NCBI GenBank assembly: GCA_002711565.1
Contig: PARP01000018.1
Location: 1 to 35,788, forward strand
Direction: 5' to 3'
Origin: Bacteroidota bacterium
Lineage (GTDB): Bacteria; Bacteroidota; Bacteroidia; Bacteroidales; GCA-2711565
Length of the DNA: 35,788 nucleotides
Both the position numbers and the translations under genes were made by a program. Positions within the stretch are counted from its first letter, which is position 1. Each line of letters starts with the position of its first letter. This document shows, in pieces, positions 3,651-35,788 of this stretch. The notes beneath the pieces were generated by a model, which worked only from the letters and a program-made list of their open reading frames with translations, was not told the origin of the DNA and ran no database searches.

Positions 3651-4082
3651 TTAGAATATAAATAAATGAGTTGTTAGAGGTCTTTTCAGCATTCTGTCTA
3701 AACCGATCAATGACACAATTGCAATTGTTGCAATAACCAAGATCGATGGAATTTGAATTGATGTAAATACACCTTTTACACTTTTTACAATATCAGCTAA
3801 GAAGGTAATTTGGAAGTTTTCGAGCTTAATTTCACCAAATAAACTTCCGAATGAAGGCAGTTGCATTCCGAAAATGATATAGCCTGCAGCTATGAATGCG
3901 ATACCGATCAATGCAAGGTATTTATAGCCAATAATTGGCTGAAATCTTTCTTGTTCTTTAACGGCTTCCTTTTCGATCATTTGCATGACGTTTGCCGTAA
4001 AGCTTGACGATGGTTGATCAAGGTTCTCTTGCTCAAACATGCTTTCGAAGAAAGCGTCGTCTAATTGTTTGTTAGTTCCCAT
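3651..4082 (-). CDS. Small membrane protein, putative anti-sigma partner
   Basis: 143 residues. A soluble N-terminal half (~75 residues, acidic, containing DDAFFESMFEQENLD) is followed by two hydrophobic segments: about residues 53-72 (YLALIGIAFIAAGYIIFG) and 112-128 (ILVIATIAIVSLIGLD). It starts 12 bases after the ECF sigma gene, which suggests it is the cognate anti-sigma or a sigma-controlled membrane factor. No HxxxCxxC zinc anti-sigma motif is visible, so this rests on gene order and topology. The family is not recognised. Confidence 0.6.
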   Translation of the reverse strand: MGTNKQLDDAFFESMFEQENLDQPSSSFTANVMQMIEKEAVKEQERFQPIIGYKYLALIGIAFIAAGYIIFGMQLPSFGSLFGEIKLENFQITFLADIVKSVKGVFTSIQIPSILVIATIAIVSLIGLDRMLKRPLTTHLFIF

Positions 4083-4094
4083 AATTTTCCCTTT

Positions 4095-4670
4095 CTATGT
4101 AAACTCACCGATCCTATGCTTACGCATCGCATCAATGGGTTGATATACTTTTTTCCTGATCCTGTGAAGTTTCACTTTTACGTTACTTGCCGATAATCCG
4201 GTTACCATGCTGATTTCTTCAATTGATTGTTCCTTCAAGTAAAACATGGTCAATAACATACTATCCTCTTCAGGGATCTTCTTCAATGCCGCGTCAAAGT
4301 ATTTCTTTTTATCCTCATAACCGAAGTCTTCACTATGCTCAAAAAGCTCTCCATCAGAATGATTATCTAAAATATGATCATCAATTGCTGATACTTCCAT
4401 TTGCTTCTTTCTGGTTTTTGAAATTGCAGTATTATAGGCAATTCTGTACATCCAGGTTGAGAATTTGGATTCCCTTTTAAACTTTGACAGGGATTGGAAT
4501 GATTTCAAAAAAACGTCTTGTGCAATCTCTTCTGCATCCTCTCTGTTTCGCAGAATTCGGTTGACTATCGTGAAGACCATGTCTTTGTGTCGGTTCACAA
4601 GAACCTCAAAAGCTTTATAGTCTCCTGCGAGTACTTTATCAATATAAAATAAGTCTTCCTGTTGCATCAT
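4095..4670 (-). CDS. ECF-type RNA polymerase sigma-70 factor
   Basis: 191 residues. Region 2 is clear: DMVFTIVNRILRNREDAEEIAQDVF, then KFSTWMYRIAYNTAISKTRKK (residues ~30-90). Region 4 is clear near residues 130-180: ALKKIPEEDSMLLTMFYL, then IEEISMVTGLSASNVKVKLHRIRKK, the helix-turn-helix that reads the -35 element. There is no region 1 or 3, so it belongs to group 4 (ECF). The start has two adjacent Met codons. It is the first gene of a probable sigma / membrane protein / kinase operon. Its upstream GTAACC-N16-GTC element matches one in front of the divergent DUF6249-like gene, suggesting autoregulation and one visible target. Confidence 0.95.
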   Translation of the reverse strand: MMQQEDLFYIDKVLAGDYKAFEVLVNRHKDMVFTIVNRILRNREDAEEIAQDVFLKSFQSLSKFKRESKFSTWMYRIAYNTAISKTRKKQMEVSAIDDHILDNHSDGELFEHSEDFGYEDKKKYFDAALKKIPEEDSMLLTMFYLKEQSIEEISMVTGLSASNVKVKLHRIRKKVYQPIDAMRKHRIGEFT

Positions 4671-4680
4671 CTATCGATTA

Positions 4681-4705
4681 GACCCGAAAATACTGAAAAG
4701 GTTAC
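4681..4705 (-). promoter_or_regulatory. Candidate ECF promoter of the sigma gene (GTAACC-N16-GTC)
   Basis: On the minus strand GTAACC (4700-4705), 16 bases, then GTC (4681-4683), followed by TAATCGATAG and the sigma ATG. The same two blocks with the same spacing precede the gene at 5350. The layout fits ECF promoters (AAC-containing -35, GTC-containing -10). The implied 5' leader would be very short. Confidence 0.55.
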
Positions 4706-4790
4706 ACTACTTATAAGATAAAATCGTGCGAATTTACCCTTTTGATCTTAAAGGTATATTAAATAGGTACTGAAAACAATTTGAAATTTC

Positions 4791-4830
4791 ATTGTTTAAT
4801 TGCTCAATTGTTTCATTGTTAGCTACGCCT
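4791..4830 (-). repeat. 8-bp periodic micro-array, minus-oriented copy
   Basis: ATTG occurs at 4791, 4799, 4807 and 4815, exactly 8 bases apart, and ends in GTTAGCTACGCCTAAC. Read on the minus strand it becomes GCGTAGCTAACAAT followed by nnnnCAAT units, the same design as the plus-strand copies at 4954-4997 and 5177-5221. It lies in the 679-base gene-free stretch 4671-5349, which otherwise holds the two sibling repeats and the two candidate ECF promoters. I saw no gene there. Confidence 0.75.
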
Positions 4831-4921
4831 AACTGTATACTTAAGACATAACAATCAAACAAATGATCAATTATGACTACAACAACATAATATAAACCTT
4901 AATATGCTAGAACTGTTTTAT

Positions 4922-4997
4922 TATTCAATTGTTGATTTATTGTAATACAGATTCAGATACGCGAAGCAACAATGGAACAATGAAGCAATAGAACAGT
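4922..4997 (+). repeat. Repeat copy with CAGATACGCGAAGC core and CAAT array
   Basis: Begins TATTCAATTGTTGATT, then the core CAGATACGCGAAGC (4954-4967), then CAAT at 4970, 4978 and 4986 and CAGT at 4994, all at 8-base period. The same core and flanks recur at 5143-5225. Confidence 0.75.
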
Positions 4998-5142
4998 CCA
5001 GAACTATCAGTACTAATAATTTAACTATCTATAATGCTAAATAAAGTTTTTGTAACCTGAATAAAAATGTTTGCAAGTGTCCAGGTGTGCAGGTCGATCT
5101 GAGATCAAGGGCTTATGAGTTCATCTGTTCAAGTATATTTAA

Positions 5143-5225
5143 TATTCAACTGTTGATTCCTTAATAATTTATGCTACAGATACGCGAAGCTAACAATACA
5201 ACAATATAACAATGTAGCAATACAA
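5143..5225 (+). repeat. Second repeat copy with CAGATACGCGAAGC core and CAAT array
   Basis: Begins TATTCAACTGTTGATT, contains the identical 14-base core CAGATACGCGAAGC (5177-5190), then CAAT at 5194, 5202, 5210 and 5218, exactly 8 bases apart. It is a direct repeat of 4922-4997. Confidence 0.8.
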
Positions 5226-5279
5226 CTTCATAATTTCATACCCCTAGGCTTTGTGTTTTGTCATCTAAATTAAAAATCT

Positions 5280-5304
5280 GTAACCTGTAAAATAACTCTG
5301 CGTC
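5280..5304 (+). promoter_or_regulatory. Candidate ECF promoter of the DUF6249-like gene (GTAACC-N16-GTC)
   Basis: GTAACC (5280-5285), 16 bases, then GTC (5302-5304) within CTGCGTCATA. Motif and spacing match the element before the divergent ECF sigma gene. The gene starts 45 bases downstream. Confidence 0.6.
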
Positions 5305-5349
5305 ATAGTAGTAGAAAACGCGATGTTAAACTTATAAAAACTTAATGTT

Positions 5350-5685
5350 ATGGAACTAGAACCAATTTTGATACTCTCGATTATTTTCGGCTTTGTTTAC
5401 GCCATAATCTACTTAGGAGTAAGAAGAAAAGAAAGAATGGCCCTACTTGAAAAAGGGGTAGACGCCAGCTATTTTGTAGGAAAAACTAAACCTGTTTCAG
5501 GTACACTTAAATTTGGAATGTTGTTCGTAGGAATTGCGATCGGGATCCTTTTAGGAAACATTCTTGAAGTAAGTACAAGATTACAAGAAGAAGTTGCTTA
5601 TTTCTCAATGGTATTCTTGTTCGGAGGATTAGGATTAATCATTAATTACTTCGTAGAAAAGAAACACTTTGATGAGAATAAATAA
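5350..5685 (+). CDS. DUF6249-like small membrane protein
   Basis: 111 residues. Three hydrophobic segments: about residues 5-22 (PILILSIIFGFVYAIIYL), 56-72 (FGMLFVGIAIGILLGNI) and 84-101 (FSMVFLFGGLGLIINYF). After the first segment comes RRKERMALLEKGVDASYF, the signature I associate with the DUF6249 family of Bacteroidota. The function is unknown. It sits opposite the ECF sigma gene, shares that gene's upstream element and has its own terminator, so it may be a member of that sigma factor's regulon (inference). Confidence 0.7.
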   Translation: MELEPILILSIIFGFVYAIIYLGVRRKERMALLEKGVDASYFVGKTKPVSGTLKFGMLFVGIAIGILLGNILEVSTRLQEEVAYFSMVFLFGGLGLIINYFVEKKHFDENK

Positions 5686-5704
5686 TTAATTCCAAATCAA
5701 GATC

Positions 5705-5728
5705 AGGAGGCTTCGGCCTCCTTTTTTT
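5705..5728 (+). terminator. Rho-independent terminator of the DUF6249-like gene
   Basis: AGGAGG (5705-5710), loop CTTCGG, CCTCCT (5717-5722), then seven T. The T tract overlaps the stop codon region of the convergent thpR gene. Confidence 0.9.
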
Positions 5729-6299
5729 ATGTCTTTTTCAAAGGAAATCTTTCAACAATATTATAAACAGCACCACTTCTTTCCAAAATGCTTTCGAATA
5801 ATATGATCTCTTCAACTTTTAAATCTTGAATGAACTCATCCTTATATTCTGAAATAATATCGAAGAACAGTTCTTTATCTTTCAGCTGCTTTATTCTAGT
5901 TACAGTAAGATGAGGCACAAAATTTTGCCTGTCCCTTTTAAGCCCAATAGATTCAAATCCTTTATTAATCGATTCTTCCAACGCTTTTAGTCGTTCATCA
6001 TTTTTAAACCCAAACCACAATACTTTAGGTTGATAGCGACTTCCAAACACCCCAATATTTTGAATGCTTGTCTCAAACTCAAACGTTTCATGCATAGATT
6101 TTCTAATAGCCAGAATAATGTCCTGAATTAGATTAGAATTAGTTTCACCTAAAAAGCGAAGTGTCAAATGTAAATTCTCGATCTTAACCCATTTTAGGTT
6201 TTCATGCGATAATTCATTTTTGAGATCCGAAAATATATCTACAAAATTCTTTTTAGGCTTAATATGAATTGCCAGGAACAATCGTTTTGAATGACTCAT
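5727..6299 (-). CDS. thpR: RNA 2',3'-cyclic phosphodiesterase (2H phosphoesterase)
   Basis: 190 residues, the standard length for the ThpR/LigT group. Both catalytic HxTx motifs are present: HLTL at 44-47 (context NLHLTLRFLGE) and HLTV at 130-133 (context FVPHLTVTRIK), spaced as the family requires. It opens 2',3'-cyclic phosphates on RNA ends to 2'-phosphates; bacterial LigT can also join tRNA half-molecules through 2'-5' bonds. Cytoplasmic, with no signal peptide. The start is 5 bases downstream of the amidase stop on the same strand, so the two are probably co-transcribed, though no functional link is obvious. Confidence 0.93.
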   Translation of the reverse strand: MSHSKRLFLAIHIKPKKNFVDIFSDLKNELSHENLKWVKIENLHLTLRFLGETNSNLIQDIILAIRKSMHETFEFETSIQNIGVFGSRYQPKVLWFGFKNDERLKALEESINKGFESIGLKRDRQNFVPHLTVTRIKQLKDKELFFDIISEYKDEFIQDLKVEEIILFESILERSGAVYNIVERFPLKKT

Positions 6300-30515: not shown

Positions 30516-30589
30516 TCCTCTTTAGCTCAGCTGGTTAGAGCATCTGACTGTTAATCAGAGGGTCCTTGGTTCGAGTCCAAGAAGAGGAG
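30516..30589 (+). tRNA. tRNA-Asn (anticodon GTT)
   Basis: 74 bases. Acceptor arms TCCTCTT and AAGAGGA pair fully. The anticodon stem is TCTGA/TCAGA with loop CTGTTAA, giving anticodon GTT. The T arm contains GGTTCGAGTCC. Discriminator G, CCA not encoded. Its last 17 bases plus one flanking base recur at 30702-30718, marking it as a mobile-element attachment site. Confidence 0.96.
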
Positions 30590-32227
30590 CATAAAACATG
30601 AAAGGCAGCCGCAAGGTTGCCTTTTTTGTTTTACAGTATTCGAATTCTTGGACGAGAAGTTTATGCTGAGCGATCTCGCGGAACGCGAGAGAGTCGAAGT
30701 AAGTCCAAGAAGAGGAGCCAAATTAGACAGATCGCTATTTTTAGCGGTCTGTTTTTTTATGCCCCTTTCCAAATGCTTGTTATTACTGGTCATTAAGAAG
30801 ATTACCTCATTCATTTTAGCGGTTCGATAATTTTTACCATTAAATATTAGTTTTCCAGGAAATATCGAACCAAGTATCTTTTGCTTAATCTCAACCGTTG
30901 ATTCAAAATAGGTTGTATGTAGATTTGAAAGAATGGTTAATCCCTGATCGATATGCCTTTTTACCTCTTTAGTTAACGACTTTAGTTCAAGAATCTCAAT
31001 TTTCTTTGTCTGAATTAGTTTAGAGTAACGATTAGAGATTTTTTTATAGGCATTATCATCTATAGCATCAGTAATAAGCTTATCCTCTGCCTTCTCAATA
31101 TTCTTTTCAATAGACTTAATCTCCTCATTTAAGGTCTTTATCCGGCTAATGTGGTCTAGATCCTTCTCGTTATACACCTGAAAGAGTATTTGTTTGAAGA
31201 GCTCAACAATCTCGGGTTTAAATTCAAAAGACTGCAACAGTTGATAAAGCTCACCATTACACAAGTCTGCTCTGAACCTAGTCTTACAACCATCTTGACA
31301 ATGGTAATAATCATATCTAGCACCACTTCTACTTCTGGAAGCACTTGCCGTTAAGATACGATCACATTTGGGACATAACAGATAACCTCTAAGGGGGTAT
31401 CTTTCTTGACGTTTTTTAATTAACGGTTGGGTTCTTCTGTTTTGTAACACCTCTTGAACCTTATTGAATAAATGATCATTAATAATAGCTTCATTCAATC
31501 CATCAACAGTCTGTTCTTCTTCTTTACCATGAGGTTTAATAGTTATCTTCCCATTATAAACAGAATTTCGAAGTAAATAGCTGAAATTCTGCTTGTTCAT
31601 TTTCATGCCCTCTGGTCTAAGCCTTCTTCTTACCTCTTCAGCAGTATATATACCTTTGGAAAACAATTTATAAGCCTTTAGAACCAACTTAGCATTATCA
31701 TTAGGCTTGAGACTTGATTTACCTAAGGGAGTTCTACATTTATCATAACCAAATGGAGCCTTTGTAACATGGCACCCTTCTTTTTGAGCTCTACGTTGCC
31801 CATCTATAGTTCTTTCAGAAATCTTATCATTTTCTACTTCAGGAATAGCAAGGTAAATTGCTAATAAAACTTTATTGTCAGAGATTGTTAAGTCTAAGGG
31901 TTGTTCAGCAGCATTAACACTTACACCAAAAGCTTTTAGTTTGCGAATAATAGCATAAGCCTCTTCTTGATTTCGAGAAAAGCGATCCCATTTTGTAAAA
32001 AGGACGAGATCAACATCACCTTTGTTTTCTTTAATAAAATCCATCATTTTGTTAAACTCCGGCCTATTAAAGTCTTTAGCTGAATGATCATCTTCGAAGT
32101 GTCCTATAATATCAATCTTATTGGCTGCACACCAAACTTCAAGAACTTTACTCTGATGTCTAAGGCTATAACCATGTTTAGCTTGCTCATCGGTTGATAC
32201 TCTTGTATAAATAATTGCCCTTTGCAT
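30551..32227 (-). CDS. Large serine recombinase
   Basis: 558 residues. An N-terminal resolvase domain (1-~150) has catalytic Ser11 in YTRVSTDEQ and the Arg-rich FTKWDRFSRN. A recombinase domain follows (~160-265, AQKEGCHVTKAPFGYD, then FSYLLRNSVYNGKI), then a zinc ribbon CPKC...CQDGC (~283-320) and a coiled coil (~345-410). It probably integrates and excises the island. From about residue 504 the frame leaves the element: residues 504-509 (A-P-L-L-G-L) are antisense of the duplicated tRNA end, and the last 12 (from M547) are antisense of the tRNA-Asn gene itself. The C-terminus therefore depends on the integration site. It starts one base after the 44-residue gene upstream. Confidence 0.93.
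   Translation of the reverse strand: MQRAIIYTRVSTDEQAKHGYSLRHQSKVLEVWCAANKIDIIGHFEDDHSAKDFNRPEFNKMMDFIKENKGDVDLVLFTKWDRFSRNQEEAYAIIRKLKAFGVSVNAAEQPLDLTISDNKVLLAIYLAIPEVENDKISERTIDGQRRAQKEGCHVTKAPFGYDKCRTPLGKSSLKPNDNAKLVLKAYKLFSKGIYTAEEVRRRLRPEGMKMNKQNFSYLLRNSVYNGKITIKPHGKEEEQTVDGLNEAIINDHLFNKVQEVLQNRRTQPLIKKRQERYPLRGYLLCPKCDRILTASASRSRSGARYDYYHCQDGCKTRFRADLCNGELYQLLQSFEFKPEIVELFKQILFQVYNEKDLDHISRIKTLNEEIKSIEKNIEKAEDKLITDAIDDNAYKKISNRYSKLIQTKKIEILELKSLTKEVKRHIDQGLTILSNLHTTYFESTVEIKQKILGSIFPGKLIFNGKNYRTAKMNEVIFLMTSNNKHLERGIKKQTAKNSDLSNLAPLLGLTSTLSRSARSLSINFSSKNSNTVKQKRQPCGCLSCFMLLFLDSNQGPSD
30601..30627 (+). terminator. Rho-independent terminator of tRNA-Asn
   Basis: AAAGGCAGCC (30601-30610), loop GCAA, GGTTGCCTTT (30615-30624), within a run of T. 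It begins 11 bases after the tRNA end and lies inside the recombinase reading frame on the other strand. Confidence 0.9.
30645..30718. repeat. Palindromic element ending in a duplicated tRNA-Asn 3' end (candidate att site)
   Basis: AGTCCAAGAAGAGGAGC at 30702-30718 is an exact 17-base copy of 30574-30590, the tRNA-Asn 3' end. Its TCCAAGAA part also pairs with TTCTTGGAC at 30645-30653, and an inner stem CTCGCG-GAA-CGCGAG lies at ~30676-30690. Between them, TGCTGAGCG and GTCGAAGT resemble the arms of palindromic repeats common in Bacteroidota genomes (recalled, not searched). The 17-base copy is the best candidate for the element-side attachment sequence. Confidence 0.65.
30727..30758 (+). terminator. 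Rho-independent terminator after the duplicated tRNA end
   Basis: ACAGATCGCTA (30727-30737), loop TTTT, TAGCGGTCTGT (30742-30752), one G-T pair, then seven T. It follows the second tRNA-end copy by 8 bases, mirroring the terminator after the real tRNA. Confidence 0.85.
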
Positions 32228-33504: not shown

Positions 33505-34227
33505 TTATTCGCTTTCTTTAAGTTTTCTAACCCTTTTATCATTCTCTTTAATGCGGATAATCTTTCTCTCTCTACTACTTGAACCAAAATAATCCATCCC
33601 TGCAGCTATCATAACCGGAAATACCCTACGAAGATCATTACTGGATCCAGCGCTTGATAAAACAGCTTTCCAATATGCTTTCTCTTTATTAGTTTTTCTA
33701 TAGTATTCATAATCGAATACTGCGATACCAAAATATCGCATGTACATATCATACTGTTGATTTACAACTCTTGATCCTGTTATGCCGTATGATGGTGTTG
33801 AGGTAGTATTTTGACTATAGTTTATATTATTACTATAGACACTGATGTTACCTGAGGTATTTACATTTGAAATACCAGTCACCCCCCATGTAGGTACTAT
33901 TAAGTTTCGTTCATAGGTTTTGGCATCACTCATACCATAATTGATGACTATTAATAGTTTTGCTTCACTAATTGATTGAACCCTAGTATAACCTTTCTCA
34001 GTTAAGGCTTTCTCAAGTATTTCAGAGAACTCAATATACCTAAAGTCACTAGTGTTAATAGTGGAGTCTACAGGCAAGAGGTAGTAACTTTTATCATCAA
34101 TTTTGCTTTCTGAACCATAAGCGTCAACCTCAACTACAAAGTTACCTACTGAAGATTGACTAGATTGAAAAGTTGTACTGCAACCTAAGATTAAGGCTAA
34201 AGAGATAAAGAATATAAACTTTTTCAT
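33505..34227 (-). CDS. Predicted lipoprotein (DUF4136-like)
   Basis: 240 residues with the start at 34227, which directly begins the leader MKKFIFFISLALILGCS; an ATG 27 bases upstream adds nine residues before it. The lipobox is LILGC. The mature part has an alpha/beta pattern (FVVEVDAYGSESKIDDKSYYLLP, YIEFSEILEKALTEKGYTRV, AKLLIVINYGMSDAK) that resembles DUF4136 lipoproteins, followed by a Ser/Asn/Thr-rich low-complexity stretch and a basic C-terminus. The function and the reason for carriage on an integrated element are unknown. Confidence 0.65.
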   Translation of the reverse strand: MKKFIFFISLALILGCSTTFQSSQSSVGNFVVEVDAYGSESKIDDKSYYLLPVDSTINTSDFRYIEFSEILEKALTEKGYTRVQSISEAKLLIVINYGMSDAKTYERNLIVPTWGVTGISNVNTSGNISVYSNNINYSQNTTSTPSYGITGSRVVNQQYDMYMRYFGIAVFDYEYYRKTNKEKAYWKAVLSSAGSSNDLRRVFPVMIAAGMDYFGSSSRERKIIRIKENDKRVRKLKESE

Positions 34228-34289
34228 ATTGATTGTTTTTAGTGCCAATATCATAAGTGGGGAGTAACATCAAATATAATAATAATTCC

Positions 34290-34346
34290 GACTATAGTCT
34301 GTAGATAATGAATCCGTATTAGATGAATTTAGCTAAGACTAAAGTC
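34290..34346 (+). promoter_or_regulatory. Two C-box-like palindromes before the XRE gene
   Basis: GACTATAGTC (34290-34299, followed by TGT) and GACTAAAGTC (34337-34346, followed by GTC) are perfect 10-base palindromes of the GACT-N2-AGTC type. Controller (C) proteins of restriction-modification systems bind GACT...AGTC boxes upstream of their own gene. The first box lies 23 bases before the ATG at 34323; the second lies between that ATG and the alternative ATG at 34353. Confidence 0.6.
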
Positions 34347-34574
34347 GTCAGAATGATAGCTAAAGTATTTGGAGAAGTTTTAAGAGAAATTAGAACAGAG
34401 AAAAAGGTTTCTCAGGAGAAACTTGCAGAGTATTGTGAGCTAGATAGAACCTATATTTCACTACTTGAAAGAGGTTTGAGACAACCTTCTATAACTACCT
34501 TATTCAAGCTATCTAAAGCCCTAGAATGCAACCCTAGTGATATGGTAGAGATGGTCAATAATCGCCTTAAATGA
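34323..34574 (+). CDS. XRE-family regulator, candidate R-M controller protein
   Basis: 83 residues from ATG 34323, or 73 from ATG 34353. The later start gives the classic family beginning MIAKVFGEVLREIR and leaves both C-box palindromes upstream. The helix-turn-helix is SQEKLAEYCELDRTYISLLERGLRQPSITTLFKLSKALE, close to C proteins and related XRE regulators (RTYIS and ERG are typical). The size, palindromes and a downstream R-M enzyme gene argue that it times R-M expression after entry into a new cell (inference). It is divergent from the lipoprotein gene. Confidence 0.85.
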   Translation: MNLAKTKVVRMIAKVFGEVLREIRTEKKVSQEKLAEYCELDRTYISLLERGLRQPSITTLFKLSKALECNPSDMVEMVNNRLK

Positions 34575-34591
34575 CCAAATAATTGTTCAAA

Positions 34592-34676
34592 AAAGCCCAA
34601 ATTGTGTACATATTCTATGTGTAATGAGTTACACTGTTTATAAAAAAATGTACAATTAAACCCTTTAATAGGGCTT
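34592..34676. repeat. Nested inverted repeats downstream of the XRE gene
   Basis: Outer arms AAGCCC (~34593) and GGGCTT (~34671); middle arms AATTGTGTACA and TGTACAATT; centre a perfect GTGTAA-TGAG-TTACAC (34619-34634). The 34575-35077 stretch (503 bases) has no gene I can support. It holds this structure, the GTTACA repeats at 34716 and a hairpin TGGGAG-TATT-CTCCCA (34895-34910) without a T tract. Confidence 0.6.
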
Positions 34677-34682
34677 AGTAAT

Positions 34683-34742
34683 CAGTGCTTTAACAAATAA
34701 TTTAAACACTGACACGTTACAAAAGGGTTACAAGTTGTTACA
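34683..34742 (+). repeat. AT-rich hairpin followed by three phased GTTACA repeats
   Basis: CAGTGCTTTAA (34683-34693) pairs imperfectly with TTTAAACACTG (34701-34711). GTTACA then occurs at 34716, 34727 and 34737, spaced 11 and 10 bases, so all three face the same side of the helix. The layout fits an operator cluster or iteron-like site. Confidence 0.55.
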
Positions 34743-35077
34743 TGTTAAATAAAAGAATTTATGTACTTGTAATCGAGAAGTTTATAAAATGACAAGTGCT
34801 AGAATGTGAACAGTTTTGCATACAATTGGATCAAATTATGTTCAAATTGTTCAGAAAGTGTAAGTACCTATCAGAATACTGAACTATTAACCACTGGGAG
34901 TATTCTCCCACTGAAACCCATATGGACAACCTTAATCATTATGAGTTTTTGTTAGTATCATTAATTGTCCTTCAGGAGTAAAAATGTATATTTACATAAT
35001 ACTTCTATCAAGTTAAACATTGAATAGATGATACTCCCCACATCATAAACCATTAATTACCTCAACTAAAGGATCGG

Positions 35078-35788
35078 ATGAGCATAGAGAACTATATACT
35101 AGAATTAAATAAACGATACAGCACCGGGATATCTACTGAACATACTTTTAGAGCTGACCTTCAAAACCTTATTCAAGAATTAGTGCCAGACGTACTGGTT
35201 ACTAATGAACCTACACGAATAAAGTGTGGTGCACCTGACTATATAATCACAAAAAGGAATATTCCAATAGGATATATAGAGGCTAAAGATATAGGTAAGG
35301 ATCTGAATAGTAAAGAGTATAAGGATCAGTTCAACCGATATAGGAAATCATTACCAAACCTAATTATTACTGACTATTTAACATTTCGTTTGTATGTAGA
35401 TGGTGAGCTGGTAACCTCTATACAGATAGGTGAAATTATAGATAATACCATCCATCCACTAAGCCACAATTTTGAGGCATTTAAAAGGCTTCTTAAAGAC
35501 TTTTGCACCTATGTTGGACAAACTATCCGTTCAAGTTCAAAACTTTCTAAGATGATGGCTAATAAAGCCAGGTTATTATCGGAAGTAATTGAGAAAGCCC
35601 TTACTAGTGATGAGGATAATTATGAGGATAGCTCTCTTAAAGAACAGATGAATGCTTTTAAAGATATTCTCATACATGATATCACGCCTAAAGACTTTGC
35701 AGATATATATGCACAGACCATAGCATATGGTATGTTTGCTGCAAGACTTCATGATCCAACACTAGATGATTTTAGCAGACATGAAGCT
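35078..35788 (+). CDS. N-terminal part of a single-chain restriction-modification enzyme
   Basis: 237 residues from ATG 35078 with no stop before the window end, so the gene is partial. The nuclease motif is APDY (Asp54) followed by YIEAKD (Glu68, Lys70), a PD...ExK site; the surrounding TNEPTRIKCGAPDY and GYIEAKDIGKDL blocks match the N-terminal nuclease domain of large type ISP / type IIG-like enzymes. PKDFADIYAQTIAYGMFAARLHD (~200-225) is the usual lead-in to the N6-adenine methylase domain, expected next but off the window. Such proteins cut foreign DNA and methylate host DNA in one chain. The XRE gene with C-box-like sites lies ~500 bases upstream. Confidence 0.85.
   Translation, partial: MSIENYILELNKRYSTGISTEHTFRADLQNLIQELVPDVLVTNEPTRIKCGAPDYIITKRNIPIGYIEAKDIGKDLNSKEYKDQFNRYRKSLPNLIITDYLTFRLYVDGELVTSIQIGEIIDNTIHPLSHNFEAFKRLLKDFCTYVGQTIRSSSKLSKMMANKARLLSEVIEKALTSDEDNYEDSSLKEQMNAFKDILIHDITPKDFADIYAQTIAYGMFAARLHDPTLDDFSRHEA

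Follow-up and report, generated by a model that had tools for sequence, protein, structure and literature searches.

Controller (C) proteins act as timing switches for restriction-modification (R-M) systems with separate endonuclease and methylase genes. In the textbook C-controlled layout, the methylase gene is divergent and the C gene overlaps the endonuclease gene. The spacers described between the sites of two C dimers are ~4 bp, 18 bp (Csp231I), and 25 bp (EcoO109I) (PMC4321490). The C boxes of the PvuII class have a conserved GT spacer (PMC4824078), and the residues of C.Esp1396I that contact the bases are R35, T36, and R46 (PMC4041747). Whether fused Type IIG enzymes have a like switch has been stated as undetermined (PMC3695507), while Type ISP enzymes are defined with a superfamily 2 helicase-like ATPase (PMC4666363). 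The locus described here, in which a C gene stands upstream of a Type IIG-like gene, is a natural test of whether fused Type IIG enzymes have a C-type switch.

The single-chain enzyme

The window, by which we mean the whole stretch of DNA that was analyzed, covers the first 35788 of the 44225 bases of contig C64, from a genome of 2.07 Mb that is 72% complete. At its right end, on the forward strand (35078..35788), begins the gene of a helicase-less Type IIG restriction-methylase (PADLOC REase_MTase_IIG PDLC03610, 2.1e-77), whose first 237 codons, encoding the N-terminus, are inside the window; the gene is cut because an N at 35789 directly follows the last base of the window. Its PD-(D/E)xK nuclease motif, P53 D54 ... 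E68 A69 K70 (35234..35287, same strand), shows at least 97% conservation when the window copy is aligned with 64 homologues. Past the window, the contig encodes N6_Mtase and Type_ISP_C (recognition) domains, and the gene runs to about contig position 38259. The preliminary description had announced a PD...ExK / N6-methylase single-chain enzyme about 500 bases downstream of an XRE gene, and this was correct, since the enzyme starts at 35078, 503 nt past the XRE stop codon. It had also looked to the sequence beyond 35788 for methylase, helicase, and specificity domains, and the first and last of these are there but the helicase is not.

A Walker A or DEAD-box pattern was found in none of the 64 enzyme homologues. 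The enzyme combines nuclease, methylase, and recognition domains in one chain with no helicase, as is the rule for Type IIG, and its chain lacks the superfamily 2 helicase-like ATPase of Type ISP. Given the missing helicase pattern, we treat it as Type IIG-like and not as Type ISP. A full-length relative (L002) matches the same PADLOC REase_MTase_IIG model with 1099 bits. In the assembly, the window copy is frameshifted near 37489 (the frame changes between contig positions 37453 and 37516), which leaves two frames, of 803 aa and 234 aa, and there are two Ns, at 35789 and 35807.

Two observations were made on other copies of the enzyme. In L112 (8324-9376), a gene of the CoiA_N (competence protein) family lies directly 3' of the enzyme gene. 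A genome of the same genus has an enzyme remnant (G004:C6:22452-22622) in which residues 1-34 and 213-237 abut and the middle is deleted.

The controller gene and its operators

The XRE gene that had been described beside two palindromes is there, as an open reading frame (34323-34574, forward strand) with an HTH_3 match of 7e-16. A three-way alignment of the window with two relatives indicates that its start is most likely ATG 34353 and not ATG 34323, and two further relatives, whose genes start 5-6 nt after the second box, agree with this choice. The gene therefore occupies 34353..34574 on the forward strand and encodes 73 aa. The two boxes are also real: the distal operator, box 1 (34290..34299), reads GACTATAGTC and is followed by TGTAG, and the proximal operator, box 2 (34337..34346), reads GACTAAAGTC and ends 6 nt before the start codon. 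With the start at 34353, the two boxes both precede the gene, whereas they had been thought to bracket its start.

In a profile search, the best match of the 73-aa product is PADLOC Control_protein (2.7e-17), and a search of PDB sequences returned C.BclI (6e-11), C.AhdI (1e-10), and also C.Esp1396I. Residues R32, T33, and R43 align with the three base-contacting residues of C.Esp1396I and are invariant among relatives.

Relatives of the C gene were retrieved by protein similarity, ignoring the boxes. They are L028 (a Mariniphaga MAG), G069, G549, and two near-identical viral-collection contigs, L318 and L319. G069 and G549 are ~96% identical over the C-gene region, so we count three independent lineages besides the window. 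L318 and L319 carry a complete system made up of a divergent methylase, the C gene, and an overlapping BamHI-family endonuclease (M<- / C-> R). In L318, where this BamHI-type R-M system spans 3694-5805, the endonuclease belongs to the BamHI family (PF02923, 3.8e-58), the Type II methylase match is 2.8e-145, and both boxes are located between the divergent methylase and the C gene; the contig also encodes an integrase-like protein. The gene order of L318 recurs on the Desulfocapsa sulfexigens plasmid NC_020305, where GACTATAGTC is at -69. The C genes of G069 and G549 have no R-M genes beside them, and their neighbors form what we take to be a Bacteroidota integrative element. Searches of the window island and of L028, G069, and G549 with tblastn found no remnants of either enzyme of the BamHI-type system, endonuclease or methylase.

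Box 1 is identical in L028, G069, G549, and L318/L319, and in each of them it is 47 bp from box 2, so that the relatives have GACTATAGTC and, 47 bp on, GACTAAAGTC or TACTAAAGTC adjoining the start codon. The box 2 position reads KACTAAAGTC in all five sequences (window and relatives), and box 1 is followed in them by YGTRG, which recalls the GT spacer of the PvuII-class boxes. The gap between the boxes is 37 bp in all five sequences, not the ~4 bp of the PvuII-class double operator, and no second box is recognizable directly after box 1, where the PvuII class would have it. In more distant plasmid C genes (Paenibacillus, Lysinibacillus, Desulfocapsa), box 1 recurs unchanged at -60 to -72, and box 2 is missing at the corresponding place. 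The operators of this C subfamily, fixed at 47 bp, are thus wider apart than the spacings reported for the classes considered here (~4, 18, and 25 bp), and we regard this wide, fixed spacing as the most solid new element of our analysis.

Because the operator pair is present in all close relatives, one of these relatives is a BamHI-type system, and the DNA-reading residues are kept, we conclude from sequence comparison that the XRE product is a genuine C protein of the BamHI-type clade with operators unusually far apart. The proposal of controller-type regulation is supported by the same comparison, the protein being of the C family with its base-reading residues kept and the operator pair occurring in every close relative, including the BamHI-type system. 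Usually an endonuclease gene is directly downstream of a C gene and overlaps it. Here the next gene is the Type IIG gene after 503 nt, so the protein is a member of the C-protein family but stands outside the standard C-R operon.

Linkage between the controller gene and the enzyme gene

The gap between the C gene and the enzyme gene (34575..35077, 503 nt) has no long open frame. No intrinsic terminator was found in it, so read-through into the enzyme gene would be possible. It contains one weak Bacteroidota-type promoter match, at 34965, and sigma-70-like promoters are at shuffle level only. Compared with the upstream regions of other enzyme homologues, the gap shows no similarity beyond two matches of 28-30 bp. 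A CRISPR-repeat match at 34679-34715 was under the Rfam threshold and was set aside.

We surveyed 118 enzyme homologues for which the sequence extends at least 1.3 kb upstream, and the window is the only one of these loci with a C gene close upstream (within 1.5 kb) on the same strand. In L010, a more distant XRE is 1.36 kb from an enzyme homologue. A second adjacent pair of C gene and enzyme was not found, the nearest case being L028, where the C gene is ~1.5 kb from an enzyme homologue, divergent, with its boxes intact. Across ~200 sampled relatives, the enzyme occurs commonly (in 46 genomes) and close C relatives occur rarely. Since a C gene is near so few of the 118 loci and close C relatives are so rare, the pairing is not a conserved module.

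It is conceivable, but on balance unlikely, that the C protein controls the Type IIG gene, with a transcript from the C promoter reading through the 503-nt gap so that the enzyme level follows the activation-repression circuit. For a single-chain enzyme this would mean that the whole enzyme is delayed and capped, or that its dose is adjusted, and not that restriction is timed after methylation. Such control would suit two genes on the same strand that are separated by a gap in which neither a terminator nor another open reading frame was found, an enzyme gene with no clear promoter of its own, and the presence of both families within 1.5 kb in L028; a multifunctional (Type I) operon under C-type control is known in Mycoplasma gallisepticum (PMC5282649). 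However, the two genes are 503 nt apart where those of the BamHI-type relative overlap, the pairing is missing in nearly all of the 118 enzyme loci, the C relatives in G069 and G549 are solitary, and the enzyme reading frame is broken in the present assembly. We therefore depart from the preliminary description in its claim that the single-chain enzyme is under C control, as the C gene is missing upstream of nearly all enzyme homologues, occurs elsewhere without the enzyme, and is found here at a distance of 503 nt, in a segment that looks inserted. Control through read-through is possible, but it is not backed by conservation.

The controller gene segment as a possible insertion

A 785-bp segment with 15-bp inverted ends contains the C gene together with most of the gap. 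The left terminal inverted repeat, GTGGGGAGTAACATC (34257..34271, forward strand), is complementary at 14/15 positions to its partner on the right, GATGATACTCCCCAC (35027..35041, reverse strand). Both are abutted by a 7-bp direct repeat, ATCATAA, at 34250..34256 on the left and at 35042..35048 on the right, which is a putative target duplication. The C-gene segment is the only one of the 23 inverted pairs in the window with an abutting direct repeat of at least 4 bp, and we estimate the chance of this repeat pattern at ~0.002 (7 matching bases, AT-rich DNA, 23 trials) for a pattern that was noticed after the fact.

Terminal inverted repeats with an abutting target duplication are what a transposable element would have. 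A non-autonomous element is also expected to have further copies or a related transposase, and neither was found: the segment has no further copy in its own genome, its paired ends occur in none of 295 genomes of the order (single chance-level matches only), and the inverted-repeat unit is missing at the other C loci. At this one locus, the repeats suggest that the C gene arrived as a small separate insertion. Against this, the lipoprotein-like and enzyme genes would formerly have been only ~60 bp apart, which is tight for two divergent promoters. The segment also contains a hairpin, TGGGAGTATTCTCCCA (34895-34910), in which GGGAGTA, the core of the terminal repeats, recurs.

The island

Immediately left of the C-gene segment is a divergent lipoprotein-like gene (33505..34254, reverse strand) with a likely start at ATG 34227 and weak TraT and lipoprotein-site matches. 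Further left is a large serine recombinase (30551..32227, reverse strand; Resolvase 5.2e-29, Recombinase 6.6e-9) whose 3' end runs into tRNA-Asn(GTT) (30516..30590, forward strand). We presume this tRNA to be the left island border, and genomes of the same genus have the same order of rluB-like gene and tRNA. In L048 (Psychroserpens mesophilus), a 38% identical recombinase is ~2 kb from an enzyme homologue. The island is plausibly recombinase-borne, as the preliminary description held; the serine recombinase ending inside tRNA-Asn speaks for this part.

An 18-bp direct repeat, TTCTTGGACGAGAAGTTT, is present at 30645-30662 in the window and at 40462-40479 in contig C64. The ~9.8 kb enclosed by the two copies, which are possible island ends, contain the C gene and the enzyme as well as the recombinase. 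The 3' end of tRNA-Asn also occurs a second time, as AGTCCAAGAAGAGGAGC (30702-30718), ~130 bp past the tRNA, at the point where the recombinase ceases to resemble its relative; this copy is a possible attachment core. Use of the TTCTTGGACGAGAAGTTT repeats as att sites is possible, in competition with the copy of the tRNA 3' end. A third copy of TTCTTGGACGAGAAGTTT, on contig C55, is merely the product of an overlap of 5306 identical bases between C64 (38920-44225) and C55 (1-5306), which makes the two contigs joinable in sequence.

We consider it quite improbable that the XRE gene encodes a regulator that controls its own expression and has come to serve the mobile island (the recombinase and the divergent lipoprotein gene) and not a restriction gene. 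Box 1 does sit in the space between the divergent gene (33505-34254) and the C gene, and in G069 and G549 the gene is found amid typical integrative-element genes, but the profile match, the operator, and the context in L318 are those of the C-protein family, and the divergent gene has no relative beside other C genes.

Occurrence of the palindromes elsewhere

The window contains exactly two GACTNNAGTC sites, at 34290-34299 and 34337-34346, compared with a mean of 0.25 in shuffled windows, where two sites were reached in 2/100 shuffles. The genome as a whole (2.07 Mb) has 11. Canonical GACTNNNAGTC sites are not enriched in the window. The pair GACTATAGTC-N30..50-ACTAAAGTC has no other match among 395 sampled genomes of the class. 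A scan of the viral collection for the specific pair returned 6 contigs, only two of which have a C gene, these being near-identical and BamHI-type, and the other 4 have none. Other genomes of the order contain GACTNNAGTC pairs as well, which among the sequences listed are mostly tandem or dispersed repeats. In several of these genomes (e.g. G017:C26, G144:C5, G204:C4, G142:C14), GACTTAAGTCTGGGGTTA...GGACTTTAGTC form dispersed intergenic elements, which have no relation to XRE genes as far as seen.

Pairs do arise by chance, as in a 57-bp span inside a coding gene of two near-identical phage contigs, and tandem GACTNNAGTC repeats are present in many genomes, but we dismiss chance as the origin of the two palindromes upstream of the XRE gene, since identical boxes, spacing, and start-codon distance recur in three other lineages found through protein similarity alone.

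Interpretation

The best explanation of the locus, which we believe to be probably correct while keeping appreciable doubt, is a solitary, self-regulating C gene that lacks the endonuclease and methylase of its system and was inserted between the lipoprotein-like gene and the helicase-less Type IIG gene on a serine-recombinase island. The family, the conserved operator pair, the BamHI-type relatives, and the lack of linkage to the enzyme family are observed. We infer the history of insertion as well as a scheme of binding, activation, and repression that is modeled on C.PvuII and C.Esp1396I. C dimers at box 1 would activate the gene's own promoter, and C dimers at box 2, where they would cover the bases immediately preceding the start codon, would repress it. 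The two dimers would be 47 bp apart from center to center and not side by side. At that distance they could not touch in the known side-by-side contact, so they would bind independently or, if there is any cooperativity, would require looping of the DNA.

Read-through transcription from the C gene might reach the enzyme gene. In a one-chain enzyme, transcription cannot time methylation and cutting separately, so that C control, if any, would set the dose of the whole enzyme and its onset. A more general idea, which we put forward as speculation with a low probability of being right, is that there is a class of C proteins that uses two operators fixed at 47 bp (~4.5 helical turns) and whose gene is mobile as a tiny cassette. 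Placed upstream of a Type IIG enzyme, such a cassette would put the enzyme under a bistable activation-repression circuit that controls dose and onset but not the sequence in which methylation and restriction occur. Provided that the insertion reading holds, controllers can spread apart from the enzymes they control.

Comparison with known systems

The enzyme has its N6 methylase and Type_ISP_C domains in common with the Type ISP enzymes LlaBIII and LlaGI. In contrast to these, it has no helicase domain and is ~1050 aa long, where they have 1406-1578. HsdC of Mycoplasma gallisepticum (Type I operon, PMC5282649) is likewise a C-family protein beside a system without separate free restriction and modification enzymes, although its gene is within the hsd operon and the protein binds GTGTTA direct repeats.

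Close counterparts of the C gene itself are in BamHI-type systems with a C gene, L318 having a C gene of the same subfamily (~72% identity) and the Desulfocapsa plasmid one of a near subfamily (~53%), both with the same box 1. These systems have a divergent methylase gene and a BamHI-family endonuclease gene with which the C gene overlaps, whereas the window locus has neither gene. The C.Csp231I / C.EcoO109I class (PMC4321490) also has a C gene preceded by two palindromic operators that are well apart, but with spacers of 18 and 25 bp where ours is 37 bp, a different recognition sequence (CTAAG-N5-CTTAG), and a larger protein. With the PvuII/AhdI/Esp1396I class, in which the structures of C.BclI, C.AhdI, and C.Esp1396I have been solved, our protein shares the XRE fold, the GACT/AGTC operators upstream of the protein's own gene, the conserved GT after box 1, and the R-T-R contacts. 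The spacer within the box is 2 here (GACT-AT-AGTC) and 3 in that class, and the second operator, which is ~4 bp off in the PvuII/AhdI/Esp1396I class, is 37 bp off in a gene that has no attached endonuclease gene.
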